A stretch of 64,000 nt of DNA from an uncultured Clostridia bacterium (lineage in GTDB: Bacteria; Bacillota; Clostridia; Oscillospirales; Acutalibacteraceae). Positions 8,997 through 60,456 of this stretch are shown piece by piece. Location of the stretch: NCBI GenBank assembly GCA_947589575.1, contig CANQBM010000002.1, forward strand, positions 1 through 64,000, read 5' to 3'. A model generated the notes under the pieces. The model had not been told where the DNA came from. It ran no database searches and saw only the letters and a program-made list of their open reading frames with translations. How positions within the stretch are numbered: position 1 is the first letter of the stretch; each line of letters starts with the position of its first letter. A program made the translations under genes and the position numbers.

Positions 8997-9025
8997 ATTA
9001 TATACTAAAATAAGCCCTTTTGCAA
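8997..9025 (-). promoter_or_regulatory. Promoter of glgP
   Basis: On the minus strand TTGCAA and TATAAT are separated by exactly 17 bases, about 55 bases upstream of the glgP ATG. Confidence 0.8.
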
Positions 9026-15686: not shown

Positions 15687-15721
15687 CTGACATTGCTGTT
15701 TTGTAATGTCAGTTTTGTTTT
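15687..15721 (+). terminator. Terminator after the ypeB-lipoprotein unit
   Basis: CTGACATT and AATGTCAG form a perfect 8-bp stem with a 10-base loop, followed by TTTTGTTTT. Confidence 0.85.
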
Positions 15722-42926: not shown

Positions 42927-44435
42927 CTATGCCTCAAATTCGGACATCAAAGCACCTAAAATTGACAGCATATCGTCAACGGTCATTCCGCGCTGAGAAA
43001 GCTCCTTTGCAGTTACATCTCCGCAAAATCCGTGAATGAAAACAGCGGATTTCGCGGCTTCAAGCGGTTCTAATCCCTGAGCCAGAAACGAGCCTATTAT
43101 GCCGGTAAGCATATCTCCCGTACCGCCCATTGCCATGCCTGCATTACCGTTCATATTTACAAAAACAGCCTTGCCGTCAGTTACAACGGTATTCGCTCCT
43201 TTAAGGACTACCACAATATCGTTTTCTTTTGCAAACGCTTTTGCGACATCAATTCGGTTTGACTGAACATAATCGGTGCTTTCTCCAACAAGCCTTGCCA
43301 TTTCGGCAGAATGCGGAGTAATAACAAGCGGCGCTTTTTTATCCTTTATTATATCTATGAAGGGAGCTGCCGCATTTATACCATCTGCGTCCAAAACAAC
43401 AGGAACATCGCTTGTCTTAATCACCTGACCGACTATTACCTGCGTATCGTCATTATTGCCCAAACCGCACCCGACAGCAACGCTGTCCGCCCATTTAAGC
43501 TCATCAAAAATATCATTCATTGCTCCGATTGAAATTGTTTTTTGCTCATTTTCACAGAGCGGTTTAAAAACAGGCTGTACCATATGCGACGTCATCACAG
43601 GATATATGGATTTGGGGAAAGCGCATTTCAAAAGCCCAACGCCTGTTTTTAACGCGGCTTTCGCGCTTATTACAGCCGCGCCCGGCATAAGATACGAGCC
43701 GCAAATATTAAGCTGATGACCGCGGCAACCCTTGTGGGAATTTTTATCAAGCTTTGGGAAATTCTTTTTTACATCGGATTTTGTAATTGTCTGTGCATAA
43801 TCAGTATCATAACAGCTTTCGGGAATACCGATATTAACAGTAACAACCTTGCCGCAGTAAGCATTTGAAGGAGGTAAAACGTGGGCAAATTTAAGCGTTG
43901 AAACGGCGATAGTCAAATCTGCCTTAACCGAATTCACAGCCGCGCCCGTTGAAGCGTTTGTACCGCTCGGCGTATCAATGCTTATTACCGGCGCGCCGCA
44001 GTTATTGACGGTATCAAACACTTCTTTAAACGGCTCTCTCGGCTCGCCGTGAAAGCCTATTCCGAAAATGCAGTCAACAATAATATCGCAGTTAAAATCG
44101 TATTCAACAAAAAAATAGTCTTTAACGCCGTCTGCAACAGCCGTGTCAAAATACATTTTAGGCTCAGGCAGTTCGGGCGCTTTGTCGGCAAGGACAATGC
44201 TCACGTCAACGCCCATTTTTGCAAAAAGGTCCGCAATAACGAAACCGTCGCCGGCGTTCTTGCCGTTACCGCAAATAACGGCTACTTTTTTCTCCTCAAT
44301 GCCGTCGCCGTAATATTTAAGTATTTTATTAAAGCAGGCTGTCCCTGCGCTGAGCATCAAGCCCTCCTCGGTAAACCCGCTTTGGAAAGCTCTCTCCTCA
44401 ACCTGTTTTATTTGTTTAGCTGTCAATATTCTCAT
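42927..44435 (-). CDS. nnrD: Bifunctional NAD(P)H-hydrate epimerase / ADP-dependent NAD(P)H-hydrate dehydratase
   Basis: This 502-residue repair enzyme has two domains. Residues 1-210 are a YjeF_N epimerase (MRILTAKQIKQVEERAF, VAVICGNGKNAGDGFVIADL, VDCIFGIGFHGEPREPF, ISIDTPSGTNA). Residues 225-500 are a ribokinase-like dehydratase (NSHKGCRGHQLNICGSYLMPGAAVISAKAAL, VAVGCGLG, PLVITPHSAEMARL, GGTGDMLTGIIGSFLAQG). It rescues damaged NAD(P)HX in the cytoplasm. It starts six bases after acpS. Confidence 0.95.
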   Translation of the reverse strand: MRILTAKQIKQVEERAFQSGFTEEGLMLSAGTACFNKILKYYGDGIEEKKVAVICGNGKNAGDGFVIADLFAKMGVDVSIVLADKAPELPEPKMYFDTAVADGVKDYFFVEYDFNCDIIVDCIFGIGFHGEPREPFKEVFDTVNNCGAPVISIDTPSGTNASTGAAVNSVKADLTIAVSTLKFAHVLPPSNAYCGKVVTVNIGIPESCYDTDYAQTITKSDVKKNFPKLDKNSHKGCRGHQLNICGSYLMPGAAVISAKAALKTGVGLLKCAFPKSIYPVMTSHMVQPVFKPLCENEQKTISIGAMNDIFDELKWADSVAVGCGLGNNDDTQVIVGQVIKTSDVPVVLDADGINAAAPFIDIIKDKKAPLVITPHSAEMARLVGESTDYVQSNRIDVAKAFAKENDIVVVLKGANTVVTDGKAVFVNMNGNAGMAMGGTGDMLTGIIGSFLAQGLEPLEAAKSAVFIHGFCGDVTAKELSQRGMTVDDMLSILGALMSEFEA

Positions 44436-44441
44436 AAAAAA

Positions 44442-44753
44442 TCACCACACAATAACCGCCGCAACTGCATATTCACCATCATGAGAAATAGATACGTCAC
44501 AATTAGAAACTCCGTCAATATAAGGTCTGCCTTTATCATTATGGAGAATTTCAATATCGGTAAGCGGACGAGTAATACCCGTACCTACCGCCTTTAAATA
44601 AGCTTCCTTGCAGGCAAAAACACCGGCAAAGCTCTCTGCTTTTTTACAGTATTCTCTTTCCCGCTCGGTAAAGACTCTTTTAATAAAGGAGGGATTTTTT
44701 ATACTTTCCTCCATTCTTGAAATTTTGACAATATCCGTACCTATTTTATACAT
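44442..44753 (-). CDS. acpS: Holo-[acyl-carrier-protein] synthase
   Basis: The 103-residue phosphopantetheinyl transferase activates ACP. Motifs are YKIGTDIVKISRME, RVFTEREREYCKK, FAGVFACKEAYLKAVGTGI and DVSISHDGEYAVAAVIV. The ATG at 44753 lies one base after the lacZ stop with AGGTG upstream; an in-frame GTG at 44762 inside lacZ is rejected. acpS and nnrDE are a common pair; their position behind lacZ is unusual. Confidence 0.95.
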   Translation of the reverse strand: MYKIGTDIVKISRMEESIKNPSFIKRVFTEREREYCKKAESFAGVFACKEAYLKAVGTGITRPLTDIEILHNDKGRPYIDGVSNCDVSISHDGEYAVAAVIVW

Positions 44754-44754
44754 C

Positions 44755-47748
44755 TTATTCACCTATCGGCTTTATAATGAATGTTAAATTTTTTCCTGTA
44801 AGCAGACCTAAACGATACTTCCTCGCCGGAGGCGGTCCGCACGAATTTGAACCTGCGCCCATAACTTCCGCGTCAATATTGATGCAGGTTGTATTATCAG
44901 TTAAATCATCCCTGTGCTTTGCCTTTGCGCAGGTTTGGGGAGTAAACGGATTAGCGGAGAACACAAACGGCTTTCCAACCGCCTCAAAGCGAAGACCTAC
45001 TCCGTCGTCATCAGTTATTTGCGCAAAACGTGTACCGCATCTTGTTGCGCTTTCCTGAGGCTTGATATAATTTTCTCTCATATCTAAAACGGTAGTTTCA
45101 TAAACGCCTGACAAAGTATGTTCCTTAAAATCGGGAAGATTTACATACGGTCCCAATCCGAAATATTTGACATTGTTAAACTTTCTCGGCATTTCAAGCT
45201 GAACTCCGAAACGGGGCACAAGCTTGACAGCTCCCGCGCTTGTGCATCTGTAATCCGCCTTAATTGTTCCGTCGCCGTAAACGCAAAGACTTGTATTTAC
45301 TTTAGCGACTCTGAACTTTATAGGAGTCTTGACCGTAACCGTGCTTGTGATTTCAACGCAGTCATTTTTAATCTCATATTTGCAGCCTTTAACAAAAGCG
45401 GACTGACTTTCAAGCCTGTATTTTTTCCAGGCAAGATTTATATACATATCATTATCAAGCGGAGCTCTGTAAAACTGTAGACCTATGCCCTTAAAATCAC
45501 TTGACGGAATTTGATTGATAAGTTCCTTTCCCTTGTAGATATAAGAATCAATAAATCCTGAAGCTGTGTCAAAAATCATACTGCCGTTTTTAAATGTTAT
45601 AAAAAGACGCTTTTCGCTTTTCTGCACTTGAGGAGCCTTTGCATTTATTATATCCGCGTTAAGCTCGCCTTTTGAAAGCTCGATTTCCTCATAAGCTACA
45701 GTTCGCTCGCCGTCGAAATATTCAAACTGTATAACAGTATTTTTCTTTTTATTATAATCAAAATTTTCTATTTCAACCTTCTTAGAGGTCTGCGGTTTGA
45801 TATTAAGCTCAAACTCACCGTTTGAAATCGGCAGTCCGTTTTCAAGTACTTTGTATTTAACCGAAAGCACGGCGTTTTCAAAATACTTATGATTAAAGAA
45901 CGAGTAGCTTGTTACGCCGTTCTTTGACGCTCTTACAGGCCGGTAGCAAATCTTCATCTGCTGCGCTCCGGAATGAGGTGCCCTGTCGGGATAAAACAGA
46001 CCGTCAACGCAGAAATTTCCGTCGTGTTTCAGCTCGCCGTGATCACCGCCGTAGGTATACCTGTACTTTCCGTCCTCATGATAAACCGCATGGTCTGCAA
46101 ATTCCCATATACATCCGCCGAGCATATTGTCCGCGCTGTAAAAACACTTAACATATCTTTCAAGCTCTCCTGCGCCGACTCCCATAGCGTGAGCATATTC
46201 GCAAAGATAAAACGGCTTTGTATAAAACTTTCTCGGCAAACCGTGTCCTTTGGCTATTCTTTCACATATATTCGGGAAAGTATACATCTGCGAAAGCACG
46301 TCATACGCCCAGCGCTTTGTTCGGCAGGCGCCCTCATAATGGACAGGTATGGGAGTGAGCTTTTTAAGCTCATCACAGCAGTAATCCTGATTAGCATACC
46401 CGTGCGACTCGTTGCCGAGCGACCACATTGTAATTGAAGGGTGGTTCTTATCCCTCTCAAACATACGGTAAACTCTGTCCCAGTAATGCTCCCTCCATTC
46501 TGGATTATGCGAACAGGCAGAATCTTTGTGAATTTCGCTACAGCCGTGAGTTTCAATATCCGCCTCGTCAACAACATAGACACCGTATTCATCGCAAAGG
46601 TCAAGAAAGGCAGGGTCGGGTGGATAATGTGAAGTCCTTACACAATTCGCGTTGAACTCTTTAATTAACCTGACGTCCCTCTCCATTTCCTCAATCGTAA
46701 GGACATAGCCTGTTTTCGGATTTGTATCATGGTGGTTTACACCGAGCAGTTTAATATGTCGGTTGTTGAAATTAAACACGTTTCCTTTAATTTCAATATG
46801 CTTAAATCCGATATTCTTTCTGATAACCTCAATTATATTCTCATTCTTTGAAAGGGTTATGATAAGGTCATAGAGATAGGGATTTTCCGCCGACCATTCG
46901 GAAACCTCCAACGAATCAAAAGCAATGCTCTCAATTTCGGAAGGAGAAACATTGACCGATTTTGAAGCAATCATTTTACCGTCATCATATAAAAAAGCGG
47001 TAAGCTGGCAGTCTTCAGTCAGCTTTAACGACGGATTGATTTCAAGCTTATATTCCCTGTCTTTAATATACTTTGTTTTAACCTCAAAATCATAAACGGA
47101 GTTGTCCCCTGTTCTGTAAAGCAGAACATCACGGAAAATTCCGTTGCACCTGAACATATCCTGACATTCAAGGTATGTACCATTGCTCCATTTGTGATTT
47201 ACAACAATAATTTCATTTTTACCCTCAGTAATAAACTCGTTAAGCTCAAACTGGGCTGTATTGTGGCTTCCCTCGCTGTAGCCGACATATTTGCCGTTGC
47301 AGAAAAGGTCAAAAGCGCCCGCTACTCCTAAAAAACATATATAGAAATTCTGATTTTCGTTTTCAATATTAATTATTTTTCTGTAAACGCCTGCCGGGCA
47401 GTCCTCCGGAAAATTCGGCGGATCGGGCTTAAACTGATAACGCGTGTTTACATAATACGGATTTTCGTATCCCGTATGCTGCCAGGTTGATGGAACGGCA
47501 ACCATGTCAAAGCTGATTTTATCCGTATCGAAATCATCGGGAATGTCAAGGCAGTTTTTATAGTACACAAAATCCCACTCGCCTGAAAGACACTCCACCA
47601 TTGAAGAGCTGTATCTCTCATTTCGTATATCCGCACCGTCAAGCTCCGAAAGAGACGCAAAAGGAATAAAATATGAACGAGGATACATAACATTGTCTTT
47701 AAATGTTTTAAAAGTCTTATAATTATCTGTTTTAAGGCTGTATTTCAT
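44755..47748 (-). CDS. lacZ: GH2 beta-galactosidase (LacZ type)
   Basis: The 997-residue LacZ-type enzyme has five domains: sugar-binding jelly roll (residues 50-215, VPSTWQHTGYENPYYVNTRY), two immunoglobulin-like domains and the TIM barrel with acid/base E447 in MWSLGNESHGY and nucleophile E517 in FYLCEYAHAMG. The C-terminal Bgal_small_N domain is FENGSMIFDTASG and IGLQFYRAPLDNDMYINLAWKKY. There is no signal peptide, so it cleaves imported beta-galactosides. GGGAGG precedes the ATG. The promoter at 47778-47820 duplicates that of the GPH symporter. Confidence 0.96.
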   Translation of the reverse strand: MKYSLKTDNYKTFKTFKDNVMYPRSYFIPFASLSELDGADIRNERYSSSMVECLSGEWDFVYYKNCLDIPDDFDTDKISFDMVAVPSTWQHTGYENPYYVNTRYQFKPDPPNFPEDCPAGVYRKIINIENENQNFYICFLGVAGAFDLFCNGKYVGYSEGSHNTAQFELNEFITEGKNEIIVVNHKWSNGTYLECQDMFRCNGIFRDVLLYRTGDNSVYDFEVKTKYIKDREYKLEINPSLKLTEDCQLTAFLYDDGKMIASKSVNVSPSEIESIAFDSLEVSEWSAENPYLYDLIITLSKNENIIEVIRKNIGFKHIEIKGNVFNFNNRHIKLLGVNHHDTNPKTGYVLTIEEMERDVRLIKEFNANCVRTSHYPPDPAFLDLCDEYGVYVVDEADIETHGCSEIHKDSACSHNPEWREHYWDRVYRMFERDKNHPSITMWSLGNESHGYANQDYCCDELKKLTPIPVHYEGACRTKRWAYDVLSQMYTFPNICERIAKGHGLPRKFYTKPFYLCEYAHAMGVGAGELERYVKCFYSADNMLGGCIWEFADHAVYHEDGKYRYTYGGDHGELKHDGNFCVDGLFYPDRAPHSGAQQMKICYRPVRASKNGVTSYSFFNHKYFENAVLSVKYKVLENGLPISNGEFELNIKPQTSKKVEIENFDYNKKKNTVIQFEYFDGERTVAYEEIELSKGELNADIINAKAPQVQKSEKRLFITFKNGSMIFDTASGFIDSYIYKGKELINQIPSSDFKGIGLQFYRAPLDNDMYINLAWKKYRLESQSAFVKGCKYEIKNDCVEITSTVTVKTPIKFRVAKVNTSLCVYGDGTIKADYRCTSAGAVKLVPRFGVQLEMPRKFNNVKYFGLGPYVNLPDFKEHTLSGVYETTVLDMRENYIKPQESATRCGTRFAQITDDDGVGLRFEAVGKPFVFSANPFTPQTCAKAKHRDDLTDNTTCINIDAEVMGAGSNSCGPPPARKYRLGLLTGKNLTFIIKPIGE

Positions 47749-47777
47749 ACGTCAACCTCCCCTGCTTAGATAATTCA

Positions 47778-47820
47778 ATTATATACTATATCCGCCGATA
47801 TTACAAGAAAAAGGTATCAG
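47778..47820 (-). promoter_or_regulatory. Promoter/operator of lacZ, copy A of a duplicated 43-bp element
   Basis: On the minus strand TTGTAA and TATAAT are 17 bases apart (47801-47806, 47778-47783). Upstream is CTGATACCTT, and the dyad CTGATA-N14-TATCGG spans the -35. The element is 36/43 identical to the one at 54431-54473 before the GPH symporter gene. Confidence 0.8.
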
Positions 47821-47845
47821 TGAACGATTTTCACTGATACCTTTT
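47809..47845 (-). terminator. Terminator of the BspA-like gene overlapping the lacZ operator
   Basis: AAAAGGTATCAGTGAA and TTCACTGATACCTTTT form a perfect 16-bp stem with a 5-base loop, followed on the minus strand by CTTTTTCTTG. Its left arm contains the GGTATCAG of the lacZ operator. Confidence 0.88.
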
Positions 47846-47848
47846 AAA

Positions 47849-48745
47849 CTATTTCTTTGTAACAACAGACTTCTTAGCGCTCCACGGTGAATAGATATTG
47901 TAATTCTTTCCGTTGAACTTTACGGTTTTGTATGTTCTTATCCTTACATAATATCTCTTTTTCGCCATTCGTCCCGTAACCTTTTTTGCGGAATACGAGG
48001 ACTTGCCCATTGTAATTGTCTTTGCGTTTTTGAAATTGCTTGCCGTGCTGTACTGTATCTGGTATCCCGTTACCTGGGTTTTCTGCGGATTCCAGCTAAC
48101 TGTAAAGCCTTTTGACCTTGCCGTCAGTTTTTTAATACCCGATACGTTTTTCGGTATTATATTGAAATATAACGTCTTTGACCCGCTGTAGTTGCCCTTA
48201 AAGGTTACCTTTACTGCGTATCTGCCTACGTTCTTTCTTCCGCTCGCATATGATACCGTATAGTCCGTACCCTTTTTAAGCGTCTTTCCCTTACTGTCTT
48301 TAACGGCAACTCCGGGCGTCTTTACCTTGCCGTTATAATATGTCGCTGTTGTGGAAAGCGATACACTTTTGATTTTATATATTGTAGATGACGATTTCTT
48401 TGCACCGCACATTGAGCATTTATTAACTATACTGCCATTTTTGCTTGTTGTTGCTTTTGTAACATAGCTTTTATAGCTGTGGGCTTTTTTAGCGATTGTT
48501 TCCGTCTTTGTGGCCTTGCAGACGGTACAGGTATAAGTCTTTACGCCTGTCGCCTTGCACGTTGCGGCTTTTGTTACTTTTCCGCTGTCCCATTTATGCG
48601 TAGTACATTCATCAAGCGGTACAAACTTGTTTCCGTATTTTTCAGCATATTTCTGAGCGGTAGAATTATTATAACCATAAATTGTTGCTGTGGTTGGTAT
48701 TGTAACATACGTATCATTTTCATATATATCACAATTTTTATTCAT
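47849..48745 (-). pseudogene. C-terminal fragment of a BspA-like surface protein (FnIII, Ig-like), separated by a frameshift
   Basis: The 298 codons here start at an internal ATG. The region holds the end of the repeat domain (TYVTIPTTATIYGYNNSTAQKYAEKYG), a Cys-rich repeat (THKWDSGKVTKAATCKATGVKTYTC), an Ig-like segment (VSLSTTATYYNGKVKTPGVAVKD) and a C-terminal fibronectin type III domain (VSGIKKLTARSKGFTVSWNPQKTQVTGYQIQYST). There is no ribosome-binding site, signal or start of its own. The upstream reading frame continues in register as SSVTAISEWTFYFCDSLTSIYIMNKNCD. It is therefore the 3' part of the gene at 48789. Confidence 0.8.
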
Positions 48746-48788
48746 AATATATATGCTTGTTAAACTGTCGCAAAAATAAAACGTCCAC

Positions 48789-49589
48789 TCACTTATTGCT
48801 GTTACGCTTGACCGATATTGTTACATTTGTTAAACTAACACACCAAGAAAACGCCCAATCACTTATTGTTGTTACACTTGACGGTATTGTTACATTTGTT
48901 AATCTGTCACAACTAGAAAATGCATGGTCACCTATTGTTGTTACGCTGTCAGGTATTGTTACATTTGTTAAAATGTCACAACCAGAAAATGCATAACCAC
49001 CTATTGTTGTTACGCTGTCAGGAATTGTATATGATGTTCTTTCATTTCCAATAGGACACTGAATAAGCTCCGTTTTGTTTTTATCAAATAGTACCCCGTC
49101 CCGTGTTGAATAGCTTTGATTTTTCTCACTGACATCTATTCTTTTTAAATTGTCGCAACTAGCAAATGCATTATAGCCTATCGTTATTACACTTTCAGGT
49201 ATATTTACATTTGTTAAACCAGAGTTTACAAATGCCGAACGACCTATTAATGTTACACCCTCGGGTATGGTTACATTTGTTAAACTTTCGCAATTCCAAA
49301 ATGCCCACTCGTCTATACTTGTAACGCTGTCTGGTATTATTATGCTTGTAAGGCTGTGGCAATGAGCAAATGCATGATCACCTATTGATGTTACATTATA
49401 CTTATCAAGTACTGAAGGGATTGTGAGATTCGTTTCCGTGCCGTTATATCCTGTTATTGCCACCGTACCATCGTCGAGAACTTCATATTCCCAATCACCG
49501 CTTGTATCTGCGTATGCAGACAAATCAAGCCCTGCCGTAATACTGAAAAGCATTACTACAGATAATAGCATACTAATAACTTTTTTCAT
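48789..49589 (-). pseudogene. BspA-like leucine-rich-repeat surface protein, N-terminal part, frameshifted
   Basis: The 266 codons include a signal peptide (MKKVISMLLSVVMLFSITAGLDLSAYA), a starting domain with DDGTVAITGYNGTETNLTIPSVL, and then about seven LRR_5 (BspA-type) repeats of the form SLTNVTIPDSVTTIGDHAFSSCDRL. The frame ends abnormally as ISVKRNSNK. Compared with the other repeats there is one extra base around 48812-48815 (ATCGGTCAAG where others read ACCGTCAAG). Removing it fuses this frame with the fragment at 47849-48745 into one protein of about 580 residues. BspA-type proteins bind host or other-cell surfaces. A TCCTCC-type ribosome-binding site precedes the start. Confidence 0.85.
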
Positions 49590-49630
49590 ACTTTTCCTCC
49601 CGAATAAAATTAGTATATTTTGTAAGTTGT

Positions 49631-49644
49631 ACTAATTAATTAGT
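49631..49644. promoter_or_regulatory. Perfect 14-bp palindrome in the BspA-XRE intergenic region
   Basis: ACTAATTAATTAGT is exactly self-complementary. It is surrounded by several TTAGTAT/AATACTA repeats between 49608 and 49705. This is consistent with an operator for the divergently encoded XRE regulator, but unproven. Confidence 0.45.
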
Positions 49645-49748
49645 ATATGATAAGTATATCAGTATTATTTTAGTGTGTCAAGTGCAAAATACTAAAAATA
49701 TAGTAAAATCACATATAATTATTTTATATCATTTGGGGGGATGATATT

Positions 49749-50045
49749 ATGAATCGTATAAGGGAACTGCGTGAGGATAGAGATTTAAGACAGATTGATG
49801 TTTCAAAAGCTACGGGTATTGACCAAAAAACCTTATCTAATTACGAAACGGGAAAAACCTTTCCCGACAGCTACGCAATAATCCGTCTTGCTGAATTTTT
49901 TAATGTTACAACCGATTATCTATTAGGCGTCAGCGATTTTAATTTTTCAAACTACGACAGCATTATTAATGAGATTTCAAGTATTGAAGCAAAGCTGAAC
50001 AATATAAAAACATTCTTGAATAAAAACAAAAATGACAGGTCATAA
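49749..50045 (+). CDS. XRE-family transcriptional regulator
   Basis: The 98-residue protein has an N-terminal helix-turn-helix (RIRELREDRDLRQIDVSKATGIDQKTLSNYETGKTFPDSYAIIRLAEFFNVTTDYLLG) typical of Cro/CI regulators, and a short helical C-terminus (INEISSIEAKLNNIKTFLNK) that could form a dimerisation coiled coil. GGGGGG lies several bases before the ATG. It is divergent from the BspA-like gene and may control it. Confidence 0.92.
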   Translation: MNRIRELREDRDLRQIDVSKATGIDQKTLSNYETGKTFPDSYAIIRLAEFFNVTTDYLLGVSDFNFSNYDSIINEISSIEAKLNNIKTFLNKNKNDRS

Positions 50046-50062
50046 AAACCTGTCATTTTTAT
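50030..50062 (+). terminator. Terminator overlapping the XRE gene stop
   Basis: AAATGACAGGT and ACCTGTCATTT form a perfect 11-bp stem with a 7-base loop containing the TAA stop, followed by TTTAT. Confidence 0.85.
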
Positions 50063-50115
50063 ATGCCGAACGAAATGTTCAGTTGAGATATTATTATGAA
50101 TATAATATATAGTGG

Positions 50116-51324
50116 CTATGCCATAAACGAACGGATAACCGACTCGCAGTCGGCGGCGTCCATAATCTTAGGCACGGGATAAAGAGGATTACCCTCCTTC
50201 AGCGCTCTCTTAACAAGAAGCGGAATATCCTCCTCCTTGATAAAATCAAACTTTTCGGGAATATTCATATTCCTGTTGAGAGTTCTGATTGCGTCAATAA
50301 ACGCTTTGCCCTTACCTGCCGTGTCAAGACCCTTACCGATACCAACTATGTCAGCAAGCTTTGCAAGCTGAGGATAAGCGGCGTTTGCATAGAAATCAAG
50401 AACATACGGAAGAATTACAGCGTTTGCAAGACCGTGAGGCGTTCCGTAAAGACCGCCGAGATTATGAGCAATCGCGTGAACATAACCTACATACGCGTGT
50501 GTAAACGCACGTCCCGCAAGGTATGAGCCTTTAAGCATATTGCCCCTTGCCTCTAAATTACTGCCGTCTTTATATGCTGTTTCAATATTGTCAAAAATGA
50601 GCTTTGTTGCCTGCTCGGCTTCGCGGATTGTGTCCTTAGTATTACTCTTGCCGATATAAGCCTCTACCGCATGAGTGAGCGCGTCCATACCGGTTGTTGA
50701 AGTAATATGCGGCGGCAGACCGACTGTAAGCTCGGGGTCAAGCACCGCGTACTTAGGACGAAGACACGTATCGTTTATAGCGTTTTTCTCGTGTGTTTCA
50801 GGGTCGGTAACAACCGCGGCAACTGTGGTTTCAGAGCCTGTGCCTGCCGTTGTGGGAACCGCAAAGAACGGCGGAAGTTTTTTATGTACCTTTAACTGAC
50901 CGCGCATACTGCGTACAGTCTGGTTAGGCTTAACAACTCTCGCGCCTGCTGCCTTTGCGCAGTCCATAGGTGAACCGCCGCCGAAAGCGATAATGCCTTG
51001 ACAGCCGTTTTTAACGTACATATCCTTGCAATCCTCGATGTTAGGAATTGTCGGGTTAGGCTGTACGCCGTCATAAACAACATACTCAATACCAACCTCT
51101 TCAAGCTTCTCAAACATAGGGTCGAGAAGATGAAGCCCCATAAGACCTTTATCGGTAACAACTAATACCTTGCCGATACCTTTGCTCTTTACGAACTCAG
51201 GGAGCTTGAGTATGCTTCCGGCACCCTCAAGAAGCTGCGGCTCAGACCAATCCATAAAGCACATAGCAAACTTAAAAACTCTTTGGTAAATACGATACCA
51301 GCATTTTTTAAGTGTCCAAAGCAT
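50116..51324 (-). CDS. Iron-containing alcohol dehydrogenase
   Basis: This 402-residue group III alcohol dehydrogenase has GKVLVVTDKGLM, IIAFGGGSPMDCAKA for NAD binding, TTAGTGSETTVAAV and the iron-ligand His/Asp signature DALTHAVEAYIG and HAIAHNLGGLYGTPHGLANAV. It probably reduces aldehydes such as acetaldehyde or lactaldehyde in fermentation; the exact substrate is not readable. An N-terminal extension of about 25 residues (MLWTLKKCWYRIYQRVFKFAMC) precedes the usual start, but GGAGG six bases before the first ATG supports it. Confidence 0.94.
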   Translation of the reverse strand: MLWTLKKCWYRIYQRVFKFAMCFMDWSEPQLLEGAGSILKLPEFVKSKGIGKVLVVTDKGLMGLHLLDPMFEKLEEVGIEYVVYDGVQPNPTIPNIEDCKDMYVKNGCQGIIAFGGGSPMDCAKAAGARVVKPNQTVRSMRGQLKVHKKLPPFFAVPTTAGTGSETTVAAVVTDPETHEKNAINDTCLRPKYAVLDPELTVGLPPHITSTTGMDALTHAVEAYIGKSNTKDTIREAEQATKLIFDNIETAYKDGSNLEARGNMLKGSYLAGRAFTHAYVGYVHAIAHNLGGLYGTPHGLANAVILPYVLDFYANAAYPQLAKLADIVGIGKGLDTAGKGKAFIDAIRTLNRNMNIPEKFDFIKEEDIPLLVKRALKEGNPLYPVPKIMDAADCESVIRSFMA

Positions 51325-51358
51325 TTTTTGTCCTCCTTTTCAAAATATTTCATTATAT

Positions 51359-51387
51359 ATTGTACATTTTTGAATTTTCTTTTTCAA
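51359..51387 (-). promoter_or_regulatory. Promoter of the Fe-alcohol dehydrogenase
   Basis: On the minus strand TTGAAA and TACAAT are separated by 17 bases, about 35 bases before the ATG. Confidence 0.65.
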
Positions 51388-51465
51388 GTGTTTTGACAAA
51401 ATAGTCTTTTAAAAAAATATAGTATATGGTATTATAAAATTAAGCATAAAATCGGAGTTGAAATT

Positions 51466-52809
51466 ATGGATAATGAAAAAGTAATTTTTTGCGGAAACAA
51501 CGAGCGCTATCTGCCGAAAGAGCTTACTCTGCAAAGCGACGAGTCAAACGGAGGAACTGCCTTTCGTATCCCGAGCCTGATAAAAGCGGGCAACACTCTC
51601 ATTGCCGCTATTGATAAGCAGACAAGCGGAGCCGACTGGGGCTTTATTGAGCTTGCAGTGCGCACAAGCGACGACGGGGGCGAAACATGGTCCGACATTC
51701 AGACTATCGCTACACCTCCGGCAAGAGAAACGAGGATAACCGACGAGTGTTACGCCTCTGCGTTTTTCATTGACCCGTGTATGGCGGTCGCGCCAAACGG
51801 CGATGTAATTATGCTTGTAGACTTTTATCCGGAATGTAAGGGCTTACATAACAGAAAACTGCTTGATAAAAATAAAGCTCCGTACTCAATGTACAATAAT
51901 AAAATGTATCCTGTTATCTATGACCGCGACGGCAGATTTTATCTTGTAACCGAAAACGGCGTTGTGCTTGATAACCGTTATGACGAAACAGAATACAGAG
52001 TTACAGACTGGAAAGGCTCTCTTTATAAGGGTGAGGAATATGTCGGCAATATTTATTTAAACGGCAAAATGGGTTCAAACGAAACCAATGCCGTTACCAC
52101 CTTCGGAGCACCACTTAAAGCACCAAAAAGAAATTATGTTTTTATGCTCAGGAGTACGGACAACGGCAAAACCTGGTCCGACCCTGTTGACATAACGGGC
52201 GATTTTCTTACTAAAACCGACGGAACTTTTATAGGCGTTGCGCCGGGAGTAGGACTTACAACACAGGACGGCAGAATAATTATGCCACTTTATGTTGACA
52301 AAAAAGAAAGCGTATCAATTTATAGTGTTGACAACGGGGAAACGTGGCACCGAATGACAAGACAGCCGTACTCCTGTAATGTTGACGAATGGCAGGCGGT
52401 GCAGGCGCCCGACGGCGTTGTTATAGGGCTTGGCCGGCAGAAAAGATACGGCAAAACACCGATGTCAATATCTCACGATAACGGCAAGCACTGGTTTAAA
52501 TCAAAGCCAACCGCAATTTATGCGCCTAAATGCCAGAAAAGCATAATCAGTATTGGAAAACATATTTTCTGCTCCCACGCGTCGGAAAGGCAAAGAGCTA
52601 ACGGCGTAATAACAATAGGCAGATTTAAACGCATCAAGGGGCAGACGGTCGGTATCGACTGGTACTCGGAAATTGAAATCAATCACGGCTTTTTCGCGTA
52701 CTCCTGCCTTGCACAGATAGATGATGAATATATCGGCGTACTTTATGAGGCACAGCCGAGCTCCTACATCTGCTTTAAAAAATATAAAATTTCAGACCTT
52801 TTAGGATAG
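51466..52809 (+). CDS. Cytoplasmic exo-alpha-sialidase (GH33)
   Basis: The 447-residue six-bladed propeller enzyme has an Arg in FRIPS (R34) followed by four Asp boxes: RTSDDGGETW (66-75), RSTDNGKTW (229-237), YSVDNGETW (286-294) and ISHDNGKHW (334-343). The catalytic region includes DPCMAVAPNGD and FAYSCLAQIDDEYIGVLYE, with the Tyr/Glu typical of sialidases. There is no signal peptide or membrane anchor, so it would act on sialylated sugars taken up by the cell. GGAG precedes the ATG. It is monocistronic, between the alcohol dehydrogenase and the GPH symporter. Confidence 0.9.
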   Translation: MDNEKVIFCGNNERYLPKELTLQSDESNGGTAFRIPSLIKAGNTLIAAIDKQTSGADWGFIELAVRTSDDGGETWSDIQTIATPPARETRITDECYASAFFIDPCMAVAPNGDVIMLVDFYPECKGLHNRKLLDKNKAPYSMYNNKMYPVIYDRDGRFYLVTENGVVLDNRYDETEYRVTDWKGSLYKGEEYVGNIYLNGKMGSNETNAVTTFGAPLKAPKRNYVFMLRSTDNGKTWSDPVDITGDFLTKTDGTFIGVAPGVGLTTQDGRIIMPLYVDKKESVSIYSVDNGETWHRMTRQPYSCNVDEWQAVQAPDGVVIGLGRQKRYGKTPMSISHDNGKHWFKSKPTAIYAPKCQKSIISIGKHIFCSHASERQRANGVITIGRFKRIKGQTVGIDWYSEIEINHGFFAYSCLAQIDDEYIGVLYEAQPSSYICFKKYKISDLLG

Positions 52810-52862
52810 GGCAAACCAGCCGTTTTAAACTATGCACGGATTTGGGCTTTGCCTGACGTTAA

Positions 52863-52895
52863 ATCCCCCTGCTGAAAACAGCAAGGGGATATTTT
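52863..52895 (+). terminator. Terminator after the sialidase
   Basis: ATCCCCCTGCTG and CAGCAAGGGGAT pair with one mismatch around an AAAA loop, followed by ATTTTAT. Confidence 0.85.
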
Positions 52896-52907
52896 ATCTG
52901 TTTTTAT

Positions 52908-54368
52908 TTACAATAGTTTTTCAAGTCCTTCGGTTGAGTATTCCTCGCCCGCGCGCTTTTTGTTAAGAGCGGTCATAAGCTTAGCCACATTTTTCCTTGT
53001 CATAGGATAAAATATAAGAGCTATTATTGAAACCGCTAAAAACGCGGCGGGGATAACTGTTGAAATATTTTCCATTCCGCCGACAATGTGAGGGTCTGTC
53101 ACAACCGTGATAAGCGATTCCTTGCCCGCGGTATCCTTTGAGGAATCATAGCCGTATGCGGAAAGGAGCTGCCCTGCCATAAGGATACCAAACGCCGAAC
53201 CGAACTTCTGTATAAGCTGAGGGAGGGCGGTAATAATTGACTCCCTTCTCTCGCCCGTCTTAAATTCGTCAAGTTCAACAAGGTCGTAACCCATTGAATA
53301 AAAGAATGTCCAGAATGTTCCTGCACCCATACCGAGGAGCGCGGCACATACAACAATCATTATTTTAAATCCGCCGATTTGAGCGTCCAGACCTATCAGT
53401 TTGCTGATTATCTCGCCCGCCATAGTTATTGTAAGAAAAATAATGCTTGCCGTTCGTCTGTCTGTTTTCTCCGCAACCTTTTCAACTACAGGCACAACAA
53501 CAGCCATTGAAATAACCATAGAAACTATAACATAAACTATGCCCGTATCATAATCCACACCGATACAATCCACAACCATATATGTAAGATTTGACTGTAT
53601 CATAGATGAGGCGGTAAGGAAAAAGAAAACAAATATTAAAAAGAATTTTGCCGGTTTCATCCTAAGAATCTGACCAAACGAGCGCAGTGTATCCTTAAGC
53701 GTGTTGCCCCATGTATTTGCTCCGACAGGTTTCGGGGTATAAACTCCCTCAAGCGATTTAACGCATACAAATCCGAGAGTAACCGCGATTATGCTTATTA
53801 AAGCTGCGATTACGGCATATGAATTGCTCTTAAAACGCTCGCCCAAAAGTATCGCAACAGTAGGAACAAGCGCGGGAAGAACATTGCCGAGCCCTACAGC
53901 GCCTGCATTTAAGAGCGAGGCTGTTGAGCGAATCTGCGTACGCTCGTCATAGTCCTCTGTAAGCTCCGCAACAACAGCGTAATACGGAATTGTGTACATT
54001 GTATAAAAAACCCATATTGCCATTGATATTAATGTGTAAAGTAATACTTTGGCAGTTTGGCTTGTAAGGCCTGCTCCGACAGATGTCCATGCGACAATAA
54101 ATATAATTGCCAAAGGTAAAAGAGAAATTTTCATAATTTTTCTTTTATCAACACCGCCCCTGTCCGCATAATTGCCGATAATGGGGTCGGTAACAGCGTC
54201 CCACGCAATTGAAATAAAAATAACAATCGAGCTGTACTTAGGCGCTATTCCTACAATTTCAACAAGAAATGTCAGATAATATGTGTAAAACATATTATAA
54301 ATCAATGATTCCGTAAATATACCGAAAGCGTAACCTATTTTCTTTTTCTTGGTCAAGGCGTTTGACAT
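52908..54368 (-). CDS. GPH-family sugar:cation symporter
   Basis: The 486-residue MFS-fold transporter has 12 membrane helices. Family signatures of glycoside-pentoside-hexuronide symporters are visible: KKKIGYAFGIFTESLIYNMFYTYYLTFLVEIVGI, AWDAVTDPIIGNYADRGG with the conserved Asp, and DLVELDEFKTGERRESIITA late in the protein. It should import oligosaccharides or glycosides with Na+ or H+. The ATG at 54368 has GGAGGGG seven bases upstream; the GTG at 54374 lies within that site. Its promoter is a near copy of the lacZ promoter, which suggests that it supplies galactosides. Confidence 0.93.
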   Translation of the reverse strand: MSNALTKKKKIGYAFGIFTESLIYNMFYTYYLTFLVEIVGIAPKYSSIVIFISIAWDAVTDPIIGNYADRGGVDKRKIMKISLLPLAIIFIVAWTSVGAGLTSQTAKVLLYTLISMAIWVFYTMYTIPYYAVVAELTEDYDERTQIRSTASLLNAGAVGLGNVLPALVPTVAILLGERFKSNSYAVIAALISIIAVTLGFVCVKSLEGVYTPKPVGANTWGNTLKDTLRSFGQILRMKPAKFFLIFVFFFLTASSMIQSNLTYMVVDCIGVDYDTGIVYVIVSMVISMAVVVPVVEKVAEKTDRRTASIIFLTITMAGEIISKLIGLDAQIGGFKIMIVVCAALLGMGAGTFWTFFYSMGYDLVELDEFKTGERRESIITALPQLIQKFGSAFGILMAGQLLSAYGYDSSKDTAGKESLITVVTDPHIVGGMENISTVIPAAFLAVSIIALIFYPMTRKNVAKLMTALNKKRAGEEYSTEGLEKLL

Positions 54369-54430
54369 AATCACCCCTCCAATAATATAAGGATGCTAAG
54401 ACCTTGTCGGAACATTCCTTTGATAGTAAT

Positions 54431-54473
54431 ATTATATCTCATATCAACTGATATTACAAGAATAAGGTATCAG
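54431..54473 (-). promoter_or_regulatory. Promoter/operator of the GPH symporter, copy B of the duplicated 43-bp element
   Basis: On the minus strand TTGTAA and TATAAT are 17 bases apart (54454-54459, 54431-54436). Upstream is CTGATACCTT, and the exact inverted repeat CTGATA-N14-TATCAG spans the -35. The symporter ATG is about 60 bases downstream. See copy A at 47778-47820. Confidence 0.8.
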
Positions 54474-54492: not shown

Positions 54493-54539
54493 AAAATAAT
54501 AACCACCTTTTTGATGCAATAGTAAAATAAAGGTAGACA
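54493..54539 (+). repeat. IS3-family left inverted repeat
   Basis: It starts AAAATAATAACCACCT and ends GTAGACA, matching the reverse complement of the right end in the outer 16 bases, the central ATGCA and the inner TAAA.GTAGACA. Confidence 0.85.
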
Positions 54540-54570
54540 CATGGAAAACCACCATGCATCTACCTTTTTC
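54531..54570 (+). terminator. Hairpin at the IS left end
   Basis: AGGTAGACACATGG pairs with CCATGCATCTACCT (two mismatches, 7-base loop), followed by TTTTTCTT. Such hairpins commonly prevent read-through activation of transposase. Confidence 0.65.
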
Positions 54571-54601
54571 TTATGGTAAAATGTAAACGGAAGGTATGGA
54601 A

Positions 54602-54967
54602 ATGAAAAAAGGACAAAAGAAAAGAATATGGACAAAAGAACAAAAATTAGAGATCATAGGTAAGCACCTAAATGAACATATTTCTGTGCGAGCACTTGAA
54701 AAAGAATATAATGCGGACAGAAGTATGATTTGTCATTGGGTAAGGGATTACATCAAATACGGTGAAGCTGCATTTGATTACAAAGGGCATCCGGGAAATC
54801 CTTTTGCGGCATTACACACAAGCAAAACTTTAACCGAAACAGAAAGATTAAGGTTGCAATTAGTAAAATTAGAAATTGAAAATGAACGGTTAAAAAAAGG
54901 ATATCAAGTGAAAGGAGTTGGTGCAAACAAGGAATTCGTTTCTTTAAAAGATGCGAATATGAAATAA
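54602..54967 (+). CDS. IS3-family transposase OrfA
   Basis: This 121-residue DNA-binding half has a helix-turn-helix (WTKEQKLEIIGKHLNEHISVRALEKEYNADRSMICHWVRDY), the middle segment YGEAAFDYKGHPGNPF and a leucine-zipper-like coiled coil (TETERLRLQLVKLEIENERLKKG) used for multimerisation. GGAAGG lies seven bases before the ATG at 54602, so I prefer it to the ATG at 54596. The A7 run at 54892-54898 in the coiled-coil end allows fusion with OrfB. Confidence 0.92.
   Translation: MKKGQKKRIWTKEQKLEIIGKHLNEHISVRALEKEYNADRSMICHWVRDYIKYGEAAFDYKGHPGNPFAALHTSKTLTETERLRLQLVKLEIENERLKKGYQVKGVGANKEFVSLKDANMK
54892..54898 (+). other. Probable programmed -1 frameshift site
   Basis: A seven-A run followed by GG in OrfA (codons TTA AAA AAA GGA). 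The -1 frame is open from here through OrfB. A slip would give a fused OrfAB transposase, as established for IS3-family elements. Confidence 0.75.
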
Positions 54968-54975
54968 TATATTCG

Positions 54976-55818
54976 TTGAAAGACAGATACAATGTTAAGT
55001 TTCTATGTGAAATAATGTCTGTTAACCGTTCAGGATACTACAAATGGTTAGCACGAAAAGATAAGCTAAACAGATATGAGCAAAATAGAATAATACTTAC
55101 TGAATTGCTGTTAGAACAACATAATAAACATAAAACAAAAGGATATCGCTATCTCGCCAATTTAGTTCGCAATGAAACCGGTTGGATATTCTCGGATAAC
55201 TTGGCGCATAAATGCTGTAAATTAGCAGGAATACATTCTGAAACAAACAGAGGAAGAAAAACAGCAGGAAAAGAAAACATTAAATTTCCTAATACAATTA
55301 AAGGAAATTGGAATGCAACAAAACCTTTGGAAATTGTAGTATCAGATATGACTTGCATTATGCATAAAGGTATTCGATGGGAATGGACTTATCTTTTGGA
55401 TGTTTTTAACAATGAGATTATCGCAAGTTCTGTAACAAATAAAGTCGGCAGCAGTTTGCCGTATTATCATTGCTTAGAGTATTTAATAGAGAAAAAGAAA
55501 GAGCAGACCTACCCGGTCACACTTCACACCGACCAAGGCAGCGTCTACTCATCTGCGGGCTTTTATCAAACCCATAAAGATTATAATAATATTAAACGTT
55601 CTATGTCAAGAGCAGGAACACCAACAGATAATCCGATTATTGAATCATTAAATGGTTGGATAAAAGAAGAAATGAGAACAGATTTTAATTTGCGAGATGC
55701 CGAGGGTATACCCTCGTTTATTGAAAAATATGTTCATTATTTTAACAACGAAAGATTATCTTACAAACTAAATTACAAAACCCCTGTTCAATACAGAATT
55801 GAACAAGGGTTTGGCTAA
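54976..55818 (+). CDS. IS3-family transposase OrfB (DDE catalytic domain)
   Basis: The 280 residues are counted from the first ATG. The frame is open further upstream (to 54901 and beyond), as expected for synthesis by -1 frameshifting. An N-terminal HTH_21 segment (LCEIMSVNRSGYYKWLARKD, HKTKGYRYLANLVRNETG) precedes the rve integrase core with D in VVSDMTC, D in LHTDQGSVYSS and E in NPIIESLNGWIKEE, spaced as in active DDE transposases. It ends YKTPVQYRIEQGFG. All catalytic residues are present and I see no stops, so the element may be active. Confidence 0.93.
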   Translation: MKDRYNVKFLCEIMSVNRSGYYKWLARKDKLNRYEQNRIILTELLLEQHNKHKTKGYRYLANLVRNETGWIFSDNLAHKCCKLAGIHSETNRGRKTAGKENIKFPNTIKGNWNATKPLEIVVSDMTCIMHKGIRWEWTYLLDVFNNEIIASSVTNKVGSSLPYYHCLEYLIEKKKEQTYPVTLHTDQGSVYSSAGFYQTHKDYNNIKRSMSRAGTPTDNPIIESLNGWIKEEMRTDFNLRDAEGIPSFIEKYVHYFNNERLSYKLNYKTPVQYRIEQGFG

Positions 55819-55832
55819 TTGGTGGTTTTTAA

Positions 55833-55879
55833 TGTCTACTTTTACTTGACTTCTGCATTTGACAGGTGGTTATTATTTT
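55833..55879 (-). repeat. IS3-family right inverted repeat
   Basis: TGTCTAC at the inner end and AGGTGGTTATTATTTT at the outer end mirror the left repeat. Confidence 0.85.
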
Positions 55880-58051: not shown

Positions 58052-58822
58052 CTATTTATGCCCTTTTATTCTTCTTAAGGCGTTTTTTTCAAGCCTTGAA
58101 ACCTGTGCCTGACTTATACCCACTTCTTTTGCAACTTCCATTTGAGTTTTACCCTGCATAAAACGGAGATACATAATGTTACGTTCCCTGTCATCAAGTC
58201 TGCTTATCTCGTCCTTAATCATTATTTCATCTATCCAGTCGCTGTCCGTGTTAGAATCGCCGACCTGATCCATTACATATATGGTATCTCCTCCGTCGGA
58301 GTATACAGGCTCATAAAGCGAAACAGGGTCAACAATAGCCTCAAGCGCAAGCACTACGTCAGCTTTATCCATATCAAGTTCCTTAGCAATCTCCTCAACG
58401 GTCGGCTCCTTCTGATTTTTGCTTATCAGCCTTTCCTTAACCTGCATCGCCTTATATGCCGTATCCCTCATAGAACGTGAAACACGCACCGAGTTATTGT
58501 CCCTTAAAAATCTCCTTATCTCCCCTATGCACATAGGTACCGCGTAGGTGCTGAACCGAACGTCAAGGTCAAGATTAAAATTATCAATCGCCTTTATGAG
58601 ACCGATTACTCCCACCTGAAATAAGTCGTCCATATTTTCACCACGGTTTGAAAAACGCTGAATTACAGATAAAACAAGCCTCAGATTACCGTTTATAAGC
58701 TCTTCTCTCGCTTTTTTGTCGCCCGCGTGGGCTTTCTTTAAAAGCTCAATTTTTTCATCCTCCTTAAGTACCTTGAGCTGGCTCGTGTTGATTCCGCAAA
58801 TTTCCACCTTGTTATACTGCAC
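58052..58822 (-). CDS. sigG: Sporulation sigma factor SigG
   Basis: The 256-residue forespore-specific sigma-G opens KVEICGINTSQLKVLKEDE, which is diagnostic. Region 2 is NGNLRLVLSVIQRFSNRGENMDDLFQVGVIGLIKAIDNF, followed by STYAVPMCIGEIRRFLRDNNSVRVSRSMRD, region 3 and region 4 (SRLDDRERNIMYLRFMQGKTQMEVAKEVGISQAQVSRLEKNALRRIK). It directs late forespore genes, whose usual targets include spoVA and ypeB. The start is a GTG with AAAGGA eight bases upstream. spoIIG genes are not adjacent. Confidence 0.96.
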   Translation of the reverse strand: MQYNKVEICGINTSQLKVLKEDEKIELLKKAHAGDKKAREELINGNLRLVLSVIQRFSNRGENMDDLFQVGVIGLIKAIDNFNLDLDVRFSTYAVPMCIGEIRRFLRDNNSVRVSRSMRDTAYKAMQVKERLISKNQKEPTVEEIAKELDMDKADVVLALEAIVDPVSLYEPVYSDGGDTIYVMDQVGDSNTDSDWIDEIMIKDEISRLDDRERNIMYLRFMQGKTQMEVAKEVGISQAQVSRLEKNALRRIKGHK

Positions 58823-58932: not shown

Positions 58933-59457
58933 TTATTGAAATATATCGGAGTTATTTAAAGAATTTATATAGTCGTTCACTTGTTTCCTGCCTGTGAACC
59001 AAAGTGTCTTTGATTTGTACTGATTACAGATACTTTTATAGTCGTTTCGTTTTTTTCTTGTTCTTCCCGTGAAAAGTATCCATAAAATAAATTCAAGATC
59101 AATTTTTTCATCACAGCCCTTAGCCATATCGGGACGTGTTTTACCCTTGTACATAAAATATCTCTTAAAAGCGGATTTAAGACAGAAAAATCTGTTGAAG
59201 CTGAGTATAAATATTTTATCAGCCTGCTCTAACCTTTCAGCACGGAAAAGGCTCTTATAATTGCCGTCAATCACCCAGTTTTCATTTTTCATAAATTTTC
59301 TTACAATTTCTTTTTTTTCTTCCTTGCCCCTTTCCTGCCAGCCGTATGTCCAGCTGACACTGTCAAGATAAAGTACGGGTATATTGTAGTGTTTGGCAAG
59401 TATTCCCGCAAGGGTTGACTTTCCTGCTCCGCTGTAGCCTAATACCGCAATTTTCAT
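58933..59457 (-). CDS. Adenylate-kinase-like P-loop protein (topology-modulation/FlaR family)
   Basis: The 174-residue NTPase has Walker A GYSGAGKSTLA at the N-terminus, PVLYLDSVSW, NWVIDGNYKSLF and lid-like Arg/Lys-rich segments (FKRYFMYKGKTRPDM, ILFTGRTRKKRNDY). This is the pattern of the FlaR/topology-modulation kinases, which resemble nucleoside-monophosphate kinases and whose substrate is not well established. The ATG overlaps the AraC regulator stop by four bases (ATGA), so the two are cotranscribed. Confidence 0.85.
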   Translation of the reverse strand: MKIAVLGYSGAGKSTLAGILAKHYNIPVLYLDSVSWTYGWQERGKEEKKEIVRKFMKNENWVIDGNYKSLFRAERLEQADKIFILSFNRFFCLKSAFKRYFMYKGKTRPDMAKGCDEKIDLEFILWILFTGRTRKKRNDYKSICNQYKSKTLWFTGRKQVNDYINSLNNSDIFQ

Positions 59458-60359
59458 TTTTCAAGTCTTACAGGAATATATATTTCTATATACCTGTCCT
59501 CCTTTCTGTCATTATACCAGTGATATACAACAAGTTCAGGCGTTGGCATAAGCTGGTAATTTGTACTCGGCAGCCACTCGCAAAAAATCTGCCTGCATAA
59601 TTTGATATAGCTTTCGGTCGGATATGACTGATTTTTTGTTTTAAAAACCGCATACATTGCTTTCGGCAGAATAATCTTACTGATAGGAAAGCGGTTTTCC
59701 GCCTTTTCGTCAAGATGTAAATCGTCACTCACAGGCTGCGCATAATAAAAATCGTAACCGTCGTCATCAACATTATCAATAATGCAGTAATCAACATCAT
59801 CATTAAAATTATCAGAAAAAACGGCGGACATTCCCTTAAGCATCCACTGCTTATTTCTTGTCGACATAAACAAATCACGCTCTTGCCTGCGCCTGCCGTC
59901 ACCGTAGGGAATTCCCTCAAAATGTCTTTTATATCCAAAGAATGTCTGCTCCTTCATTTCAATTACTCTGTAATCTATAAAGTTACCTCCCTCTACGGAT
60001 TCGTAATTTGACAAACGCGAAAAAGACTTAAGGCGAATGCTTGATTTTCTTGCCTGTGACGGTGTTATTCCGTGAAATTTGGTAAACGCGCGTGTAAAAC
60101 TTTCGGGATTTTCATATCCGTATTTAACTGCCAAATCAACTATTTTAATATTAGAACCTTTCAGCTCCGCTCCTGCAAGAGTCATACGTCTTGCTCTTAT
60201 ATACTCGCCTAAGGTACACCCTGAAAAAACCGAAAACATGCGCTGAAAATGATAACTTGAACAGTATGCGCACGATGCTATTTCTTCATAAACGAGCTTA
60301 TTCGTAAGATTATTTTCAATATATTCAACTGCCGTTTCAACACCTGTTATCCAGTTCAT
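59454..60359 (-). CDS. AraC-family regulator with GyrI-like effector domain
   Basis: The regulator has 301 residues from the preferred ATG (MNWITGVETAVEYIENNL). The N-terminal AraC helix-turn-helix pair is EIASCAYCSSYHFQRMFSVFSGCTLGEYIRARRMTLAGAELKGS and VKYGYENPESFTRAFTKFHGITPSQARKS. The C-terminal 160 residues match the GyrI-like small-molecule-binding domain (FFGYKRHFEGIPYGDGRR, PTPELVVYHWYNDRKEDRYIEIYIPV). AAGGAGG lies six bases before the ATG at 60359; the frame to 60407 is rejected. Targets are unknown; its neighbour kinase is the likeliest. Confidence 0.9.
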   Translation of the reverse strand: MNWITGVETAVEYIENNLTNKLVYEEIASCAYCSSYHFQRMFSVFSGCTLGEYIRARRMTLAGAELKGSNIKIVDLAVKYGYENPESFTRAFTKFHGITPSQARKSSIRLKSFSRLSNYESVEGGNFIDYRVIEMKEQTFFGYKRHFEGIPYGDGRRRQERDLFMSTRNKQWMLKGMSAVFSDNFNDDVDYCIIDNVDDDGYDFYYAQPVSDDLHLDEKAENRFPISKIILPKAMYAVFKTKNQSYPTESYIKLCRQIFCEWLPSTNYQLMPTPELVVYHWYNDRKEDRYIEIYIPVRLEK

Positions 60360-60456
60360 AGCGGGCCTCCTTAAAATATCAGCTTTTGATTTAAAATATT
60401 TTACCATATATTAAAGCTGTAATCCTGACTTTTTGTGCGATGTTCAAGATATGCAG

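Follow-up and report, generated by a model that had tools for sequence, protein, structure and literature searches.

A near-identical promoter block, apparently copied along with a terminator-like hairpin, precedes a beta-galactosidase gene and a sugar symporter gene in an uncultured Clostridia bacterium

Introduction

Lactose and galactoside regulons with a shared operator are well known, among them those of the lac, LacI/GalR and AraC/MelR types. Promoters can themselves be mobile or propagated (Matus-Garcia 2012; van Passel 2014, both as cited in PMC8049555), and PMC12207403 names upstream A-tracts among the features of bidirectional terminators, prevalent in B. subtilis, E. faecalis and L. 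monocytogenes. Here we examine a 64,000-nt stretch of an uncultured Clostridia bacterium (Acutalibacteraceae; GCA_947589575.1, contig CANQBM010000002.1, positions 1 to 64,000), hereafter the window, in which a beta-galactosidase gene (lacZ) and a putative sugar symporter gene are preceded by near-identical 43-bp promoter blocks. A first-pass annotation had read these as a two-promoter sugar regulon with a shared operator; the similarity proved real, specific to this pair of genes and homologous-looking, while the operator it proposed, a dyad, gained no good support. On balance, sequence comparison leads us to think that the symporter promoter received a copy of a block joining a terminator to a -35 hexamer in an ancestor of this and two sister species, and that both genes use one core promoter.

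Results

Coordinates are those of the window, and both promoter copies are read on the minus strand. Copy 1, the lacZ promoter block (47778..47820), has the form CTGATACC-T5-C-TTGTAA-N17-TATAAT, with its -35 hexamer at 47806-47801 and its -10 hexamer at 47783-47778; its full 43-bp sequence from 47820 to 47778 is CTGATACCTTTTTCTTGTAATATCGGCGGATATAGTATATAAT. Copy 2, the symporter promoter block (54431..54473), has the form CTGATACCTTATTC-TTGTAA-N17-TATAAT, with -35 at 54459-54454 and -10 at 54436-54431, and reads CTGATACCTTATTCTTGTAATATCAGTTGATATGAGATATAAT from 54473 to 54431. Direct reading of both copies bore out the description on which the first-pass annotation had been built: an ungapped match at 36 of 43 positions, and TTGTAA-N17-TATAAT and the dyad CTGATA-N14-TATC(G/A)G in each. 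CTGATACCTT stands upstream in both promoters, and 23 of the 24 bases of a core 24-mer, CTGATACC included, are identical between the copies. Hexamers at the 16-18 spacing of sigma-A/sigma-70 type promoters thus lie upstream of both genes, those of lacZ scoring 10/12.

This similarity is neither chance nor general promoter resemblance. We called promoters upstream of 408 open reading frames (ORFs) from the window and a further 20 stretches, each 20 kb long (464 kb in all); 208 promoters were called, 130 of them with a 17-base spacer, and the 129 with enough upstream sequence gave 8,256 pairs. The lacZ/symporter pair scored 36/43 against 29/43 for the runner-up, which rules out general promoter similarity as the explanation. 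At up to three mismatches the core 24-mer, CTGATACCTTNTTCTTGTAATATC, has two sites in the 1,955,548-base genome, both being these copies, with no third site anywhere in the 1.96 Mb; its reversed control gave none, and neither did 100 shuffles of the window. TTGTAA is itself uncommon as a -35, found in 3 of the 208 called promoters versus 26 for TTGACA. A sugar promoter class TTGYAA-N17-TATAAT was considered and rejected: sugar genes stand at 3 of 5 such sites in the 464 kb, yet were identified at 3 of 11 in 864 kb. Separately, the promoter of glgP (glycogen phosphorylase; 8997-9025, minus strand) has TTGCAA-N17-TATAAT with TAGTA (once TAGTG) ahead of the -10, and is strikingly conserved: of the 15 species read, 12 have TTGCAA and two TTGCCA, with none found in one (G025). 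TAGTA or TAGTG ahead of the -10 occurs in 2 of the 208 sampled promoters, namely those of glgP and lacZ.

The upstream part of copy 1 belongs to a terminator-like hairpin (47809..47845, minus strand) with a 16-bp stem and a 5-nt loop, 3' of the stop codon of a preceding ORF on the same strand (47849..48745; no Pfam or NCBIfam match). On the minus strand it reads AAAAGGTATCAGTGAA-AATCG-TTCACTGATACCTTTT-TC-TTGTAA, the T-run running into the -35; its 3' arm and T-run form the first 14 bases of copy 1, and CTGATACCTTTTTC in the lacZ copy is this arm plus T-run, abutting the -35. The hairpin folds at -21.5 kcal/mol (z -7.85), with none of 200 shuffles as stable. It combines the stable stem-loop, T run (T5-C after the CC of the arm) and position after a stop codon that mark an intrinsic terminator, and termination is predicted. 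At copy 2 these marks are absent: the left arm is missing, the stretch ending there folds at -6.6 kcal/mol (z -1.18), and the hairpin search finds none abutting. Promoter-abutting hairpins are ordinary in this genome, occurring at 16 of the 208 promoters versus a mean of 1.7 and a maximum of 5 over 20 shuffling rounds; that of lacZ is the second strongest.

We sought relatives of lacZ and of the symporter in 80 genomes of the genus and read the best 30 loci of each. Usable lacZ promoters numbered 20 of 30, the other ten being dropped for an unclear promoter or closeness to a contig end. The part conserved at lacZ is CCTTTTTCTTGTAA (47801..47814, minus strand), which precedes the gene exactly or with one change in G000 (the genome of the window), G076 (one extra T), G029, G039, G071, G003, G023 and G033; looser forms occur in G008 and G025, and a different sequence in G007. 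For six lineages that we chose to avoid near-duplicates (G000, G071, G003, G008, G023 and G033), mean pairwise identity over the 9 bases upstream of the -35 is 0.86 at lacZ, where the symporter reaches 0.48, the control gene glgP 0.49 and unrelated promoters 0.33; over the next 11 bases, which contain CTGAT, the corresponding values are 0.26, 0.27, 0.36 and 0.31. By this comparison ACCTTTTTC, which stands before TTGTAA, is constrained at lacZ, and CTGAT and the dyad are not. At least five of the last 8 bases before the -35 are T at 15 of the 20 usable lacZ promoters versus 26 of 137 sampled genome promoters, a difference whose p-value of 1e-6 is overstated because the lacZ loci are related. 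A hairpin abuts 8 of the 20, with about six different stems: one is common to G000, G076 and G029, and those of G077, G031, G033, G058 and G009 differ.

The counterpart of CCTTTTTCTTGTAA in the symporter copy is CCTTATTCTTGTAA (54454..54467, minus strand), which comes without the left arm of the hairpin. Here 17 of 30 promoters were usable (13 dropped), and the block is present at three of them, those of G000, G076 and G029; a 16-mer scan of the 80 genomes found no other symporter carrying it, and the G033 symporter has GATTTTTC-TTGCTC with the remainder of the block missing. In G029 each of the two genes has a complete hairpin: that of the symporter is GGTATCAGCG-TTTTT-CGCTGATACC, and that of lacZ, which folds at -28.4 kcal/mol (z -9.65), is GGTATCAGC-GATTTT-GCTGATACC. 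Four of the 80 genomes contain the stem GGTATCAG-N0-24-CTGATACC (none for the reversed control), which stands at lacZ of G000 and G076, at both genes of G029 and at one place in G031; this distribution rules out a dispersed hairpin family. Both protein trees support a clade of G000, G076 and G029 and leave most deeper forks open. From these loci the block at the symporter looks derived, and lacZ is its likely donor, because the -35 part is present at lacZ in outgroups.

In the window lacZ and the symporter are co-oriented and 5 kb apart, and in G071, G008 and G031 they are co-oriented at 8-26 kb. In G003 and G023 (loci L042 and L057) the two genes are divergent and some 200 bp apart, probably a derived arrangement. 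These two genomes had raised the idea of a divergent ancestor as the source of the duplicate, which we dropped given the window-like orientation in G071, G008 and G031. As the deep tree is unresolved, it is only likely that the co-oriented polarity is ancestral and the divergent one derived.

Across the 80 genomes, CTGATANCNNNTTCTTGTAATATC at up to three mismatches occurs at 29 places in 23 genomes; seven lie outside ORFs of at least 70 codons, and five of these seven are promoters of the genes in question, both of them in G000 and in G029 and that of the symporter in G076. ACCTTTTTCTTGTAAT at one mismatch occurs at 32 places in 28 genomes (reversed control 10), and the coordinates of ten place them at lacZ or symporter promoters. 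We viewed 21 of the remaining 22 (all but G058:C13): 20 fall within an open frame of more than 100 codons and the one in G004 outside. Three of the 20 (in G042, G045 and G067) lie, by eye, just upstream of a gene, and in two of these, G045 (a MiaB-like protein by eye) and G067, TATAAT follows after 17 bases.

The dyad CTGATA-N14-TATCRG, which the first-pass annotation had proposed as the shared operator, is neither conserved in relatives nor clearly enriched over other spacings, and half of it in the lacZ copy is a hairpin arm. It is literal in two of the six promoters of the three sister species, or three if the paired CTGACA/TGTCAG of G076 is counted; at G076 lacZ the extra T shifts the spacing to N15, and in G029 the right half is TATCGC at lacZ and gone at the symporter. 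Exact matches occur at 3 places in 864 kb (versus 0-2 at each other spacing between 8 and 20), two being these sites and the third (L222, 904, minus strand) lying, by eye, just ahead of an ORF start and not at a promoter. Allowing one mismatch gave 16 places versus 7-21 for other spacings, and two mismatches 134 versus 120-223. In the window alone, near matches came to 30, both strands counted, versus 7.7 expected, and N14 with up to one mismatch gave four places (two being these sites) versus 0-2; with up to two it gave 17, versus 15-17 for N8, N10, N13, N15 and N16. We rejected a genome-wide operator on these counts: the excess of near matches in the window vanishes against other spacings at up to two mismatches, and the inexact 864-kb counts lie within their range. 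Scattered matches lacking enrichment, the outcome that the annotation itself had set against its proposal, are largely what the dyad gave. Elsewhere in the window, a sequence similar to the G076 symporter dyad CTGACA-N14-TGTCAG is CTGACATT-GCTGTTTTGT-AATGTCAG (15687-15712), an intergenic inverted repeat followed by TTTTG that may be a terminator.

A sugar regulon might have a nearby regulator of the LacI, AraC or GntR type, and searches for one gave no clear candidate. The LacI family has no match in the G000 genome at E 0.001, while 9 of 14 control genomes were positive; by family membership this leaves no CcpA either. AraC matches numbered six and GntR matches five (one GntR under cut-off), none beside lacZ or the symporter. 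The AraC gene of the window (59454-60407) lies about 5 kb away from the symporter; it carries a GyrI-like domain, and its best matches are RamA/Rob-like. A sigma-70-family gene lies at 58052-58822; no sugar-type regulator was found among the 50 window ORFs scanned with Pfam.

The gene assignments rest on Pfam matches over cut-off, which uphold the earlier calls of a GH2 beta-galactosidase and a GPH-type symporter. lacZ (44755..47748, minus strand) encodes 997 aa with five such domains; the putative symporter gene (52908..54374, minus strand) encodes a 488-aa GPH/MFS_2 protein that scores 158.9 bits against TIGR00792, under the cut-off of 231. Downstream of lacZ, on the same strand, are acpS (holo-ACP synthase; 44442..44762), whose start overlaps the lacZ stop, and then nnr (42927..44435), with NAD(P)H-hydrate epimerase and dehydratase domains. 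acpS is the single match to PF01648 in this genome, the assembly being rated 100% complete. Of 30 loci searched by tblastn, 20 have acpS directly behind lacZ and 25 have nnr there, contig ends cutting some loci. This lacZ-acpS-nnr arrangement (42927-47748, minus strand), with a catabolic gene ahead of the only acpS match, is common in the genus; a narrow search of titles and abstract openings in the open-access literature found, among the papers listed, no report of a lacZ-acpS operon. AcpS is generally essential. With an essential gene downstream, full shut-off of lacZ transcription seems unlikely unless acpS has its own promoter, and the gene order argues against tight repression and for a constitutive promoter.

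Between EF-G and copy 2 lies an insertion (54508..55861, plus strand) with two transposase-type ORFs (54596-54967 and 54976-55818), IS3-type by domain content; it is absent from the sister species G076 and is placed, by eye, in the EF-G terminator region.

Discussion

We propose that at lacZ the preceding gene ends in an intrinsic terminator whose T-run passes directly into the sigma-A-type promoter TTGTAA-N17-TATAAT, and that the block there would also shield the promoter from read-through. The T-tract and -35 (CCTTTTTCTTGTAA) would be old at lacZ, and the block would have been copied onto the symporter promoter in the ancestor of G000, G076 and G029; in the G000/G076 line the left hairpin arm of the symporter copy would then have disappeared and its T-tract acquired a base change. 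The two genes would depend on one and the same core promoter, strong and probably largely constitutive, and such a common promoter should tie their expression together.

Several observations weigh against this account. A consensus terminator scan omits the copy 1 hairpin, we think because it counts the T-run into the stem, leaving four T rather than five in the next 8 bases. Copy 2 is near-identical to copy 1 despite its missing hairpin, and on its own the copy 2 dyad reaches -6.8 kcal/mol (z -3.38), a stability matched by 3 of 200 shuffles. The T-tract and -35 are also kept at lacZ where no hairpin was detected (G039, G071, G003, G008 and G023), which calls for a reason beyond termination. 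The symporter blocks of G000 and G076 differ at two bases that make up exactly one matched pair of the dyad; this single event is the best evidence that the dyad may function at the symporter, and we cannot explain it away. Finally, promoter-like matches inside lacZ make an internal acpS promoter possible, at chance level (9 found versus 9.2 expected over 44400-48000, both strands).

Some of these points would fit an undescribed regulator that binds CCTTTTTCTTGTAA, or the dyad across it, and controls lacZ and, once the block had been copied, the symporter. The excess conservation of the 9 bases at lacZ favours such a site, as do the ten ACCTTTTTCTTGTAAT places at these promoters (out of 32 in the 80 genomes; ten in total for the reversed control), the matched pair change together with the fold of the copy 2 dyad, and the coherent functions of two genes that are divergent neighbours in G003 and G023. 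We nonetheless think it unlikely, if well short of negligible, given a dyad neither conserved nor clearly enriched, the missing LacI-family match, AraC and GntR matches none of which stands beside these genes, a 24-mer at just two genomic sites, and acpS downstream of lacZ. More doubtful again is a combined version, in which CCTTTTTCTTGTAA would be the undescribed regulator's site, kept at lacZ in a Clostridia genus whose representative here has no LacI-family match and hence no CcpA, and exported to the transporter promoter by copying of the terminator block, a one-step regulon recruitment of which the G076 matched pair would be the first sign of selection.

Copying might be dispensed with if the T-tract were an UP-like or A-tract strength element and the symporter promoter had converged on it under selection for the same strength. 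The T-richness at 15 of 20 lacZ promoters versus 26 of 137 in the sample, a contrast whose test overstates because of kinship, and the G033 symporter with GATTTTTC-TTGCTC and no more of the block point this way; 23 identical bases of 24, CTGATACC among them, and the same-stem hairpin at both G029 genes are too specific for it, and we hold convergence to be improbable. Chance between two good promoters would account for the shared -35 and -10, but hardly for a score of 36/43 where the next-best of 8,256 pairs reaches 29/43, or for the one stem at both G029 genes; because sister species carry the block, it is very unlikely.

Under the copying account we prefer, the locus is a small and favourably situated example in which a promoter block, together with its terminator, seems to have been copied between two functionally linked genes: the outgroups would represent the state before copying, one sister species the complete block at both genes, and the other two its decay at one. 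Narrow searches of titles and abstract openings in the open-access literature found, among the papers listed, no report of such a copied terminator-promoter block. Should a regulator turn out to bind the conserved T-tract, this would open up sugar control in Clostridia without LacI or CcpA. The locus also urges caution in calling operators, since half of a neighbouring gene's terminator may pose as a dyad at a promoter.

Set beside mobile promoters, as far as PMC8049555 describes them, the locus is alike in having a short promoter-bearing block near-identical upstream of two genes. It is unlike them in having just two copies in one neighbourhood, at function-linked genes, with no wider spread seen; several near-identical copies at unlinked genes would mark a mobile promoter, and here there are two genomic sites 6.6 kb apart. 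It differs from lactose and galactoside regulons in that a LacI-family match in the genome, a sugar regulator among the 50 window ORFs scanned and a conserved dyad were not found, and resembles them in pairing a beta-galactosidase with a sugar symporter under a common promoter sequence. Copy 1 is like the intrinsic (Rho-independent) terminators of Firmicutes in its long stem, its flanking A and T runs and its place after a stop codon; unlike the usual ones, it recurs at the symporter without its left arm, and its T-run fuses with the -35 of the gene that follows.

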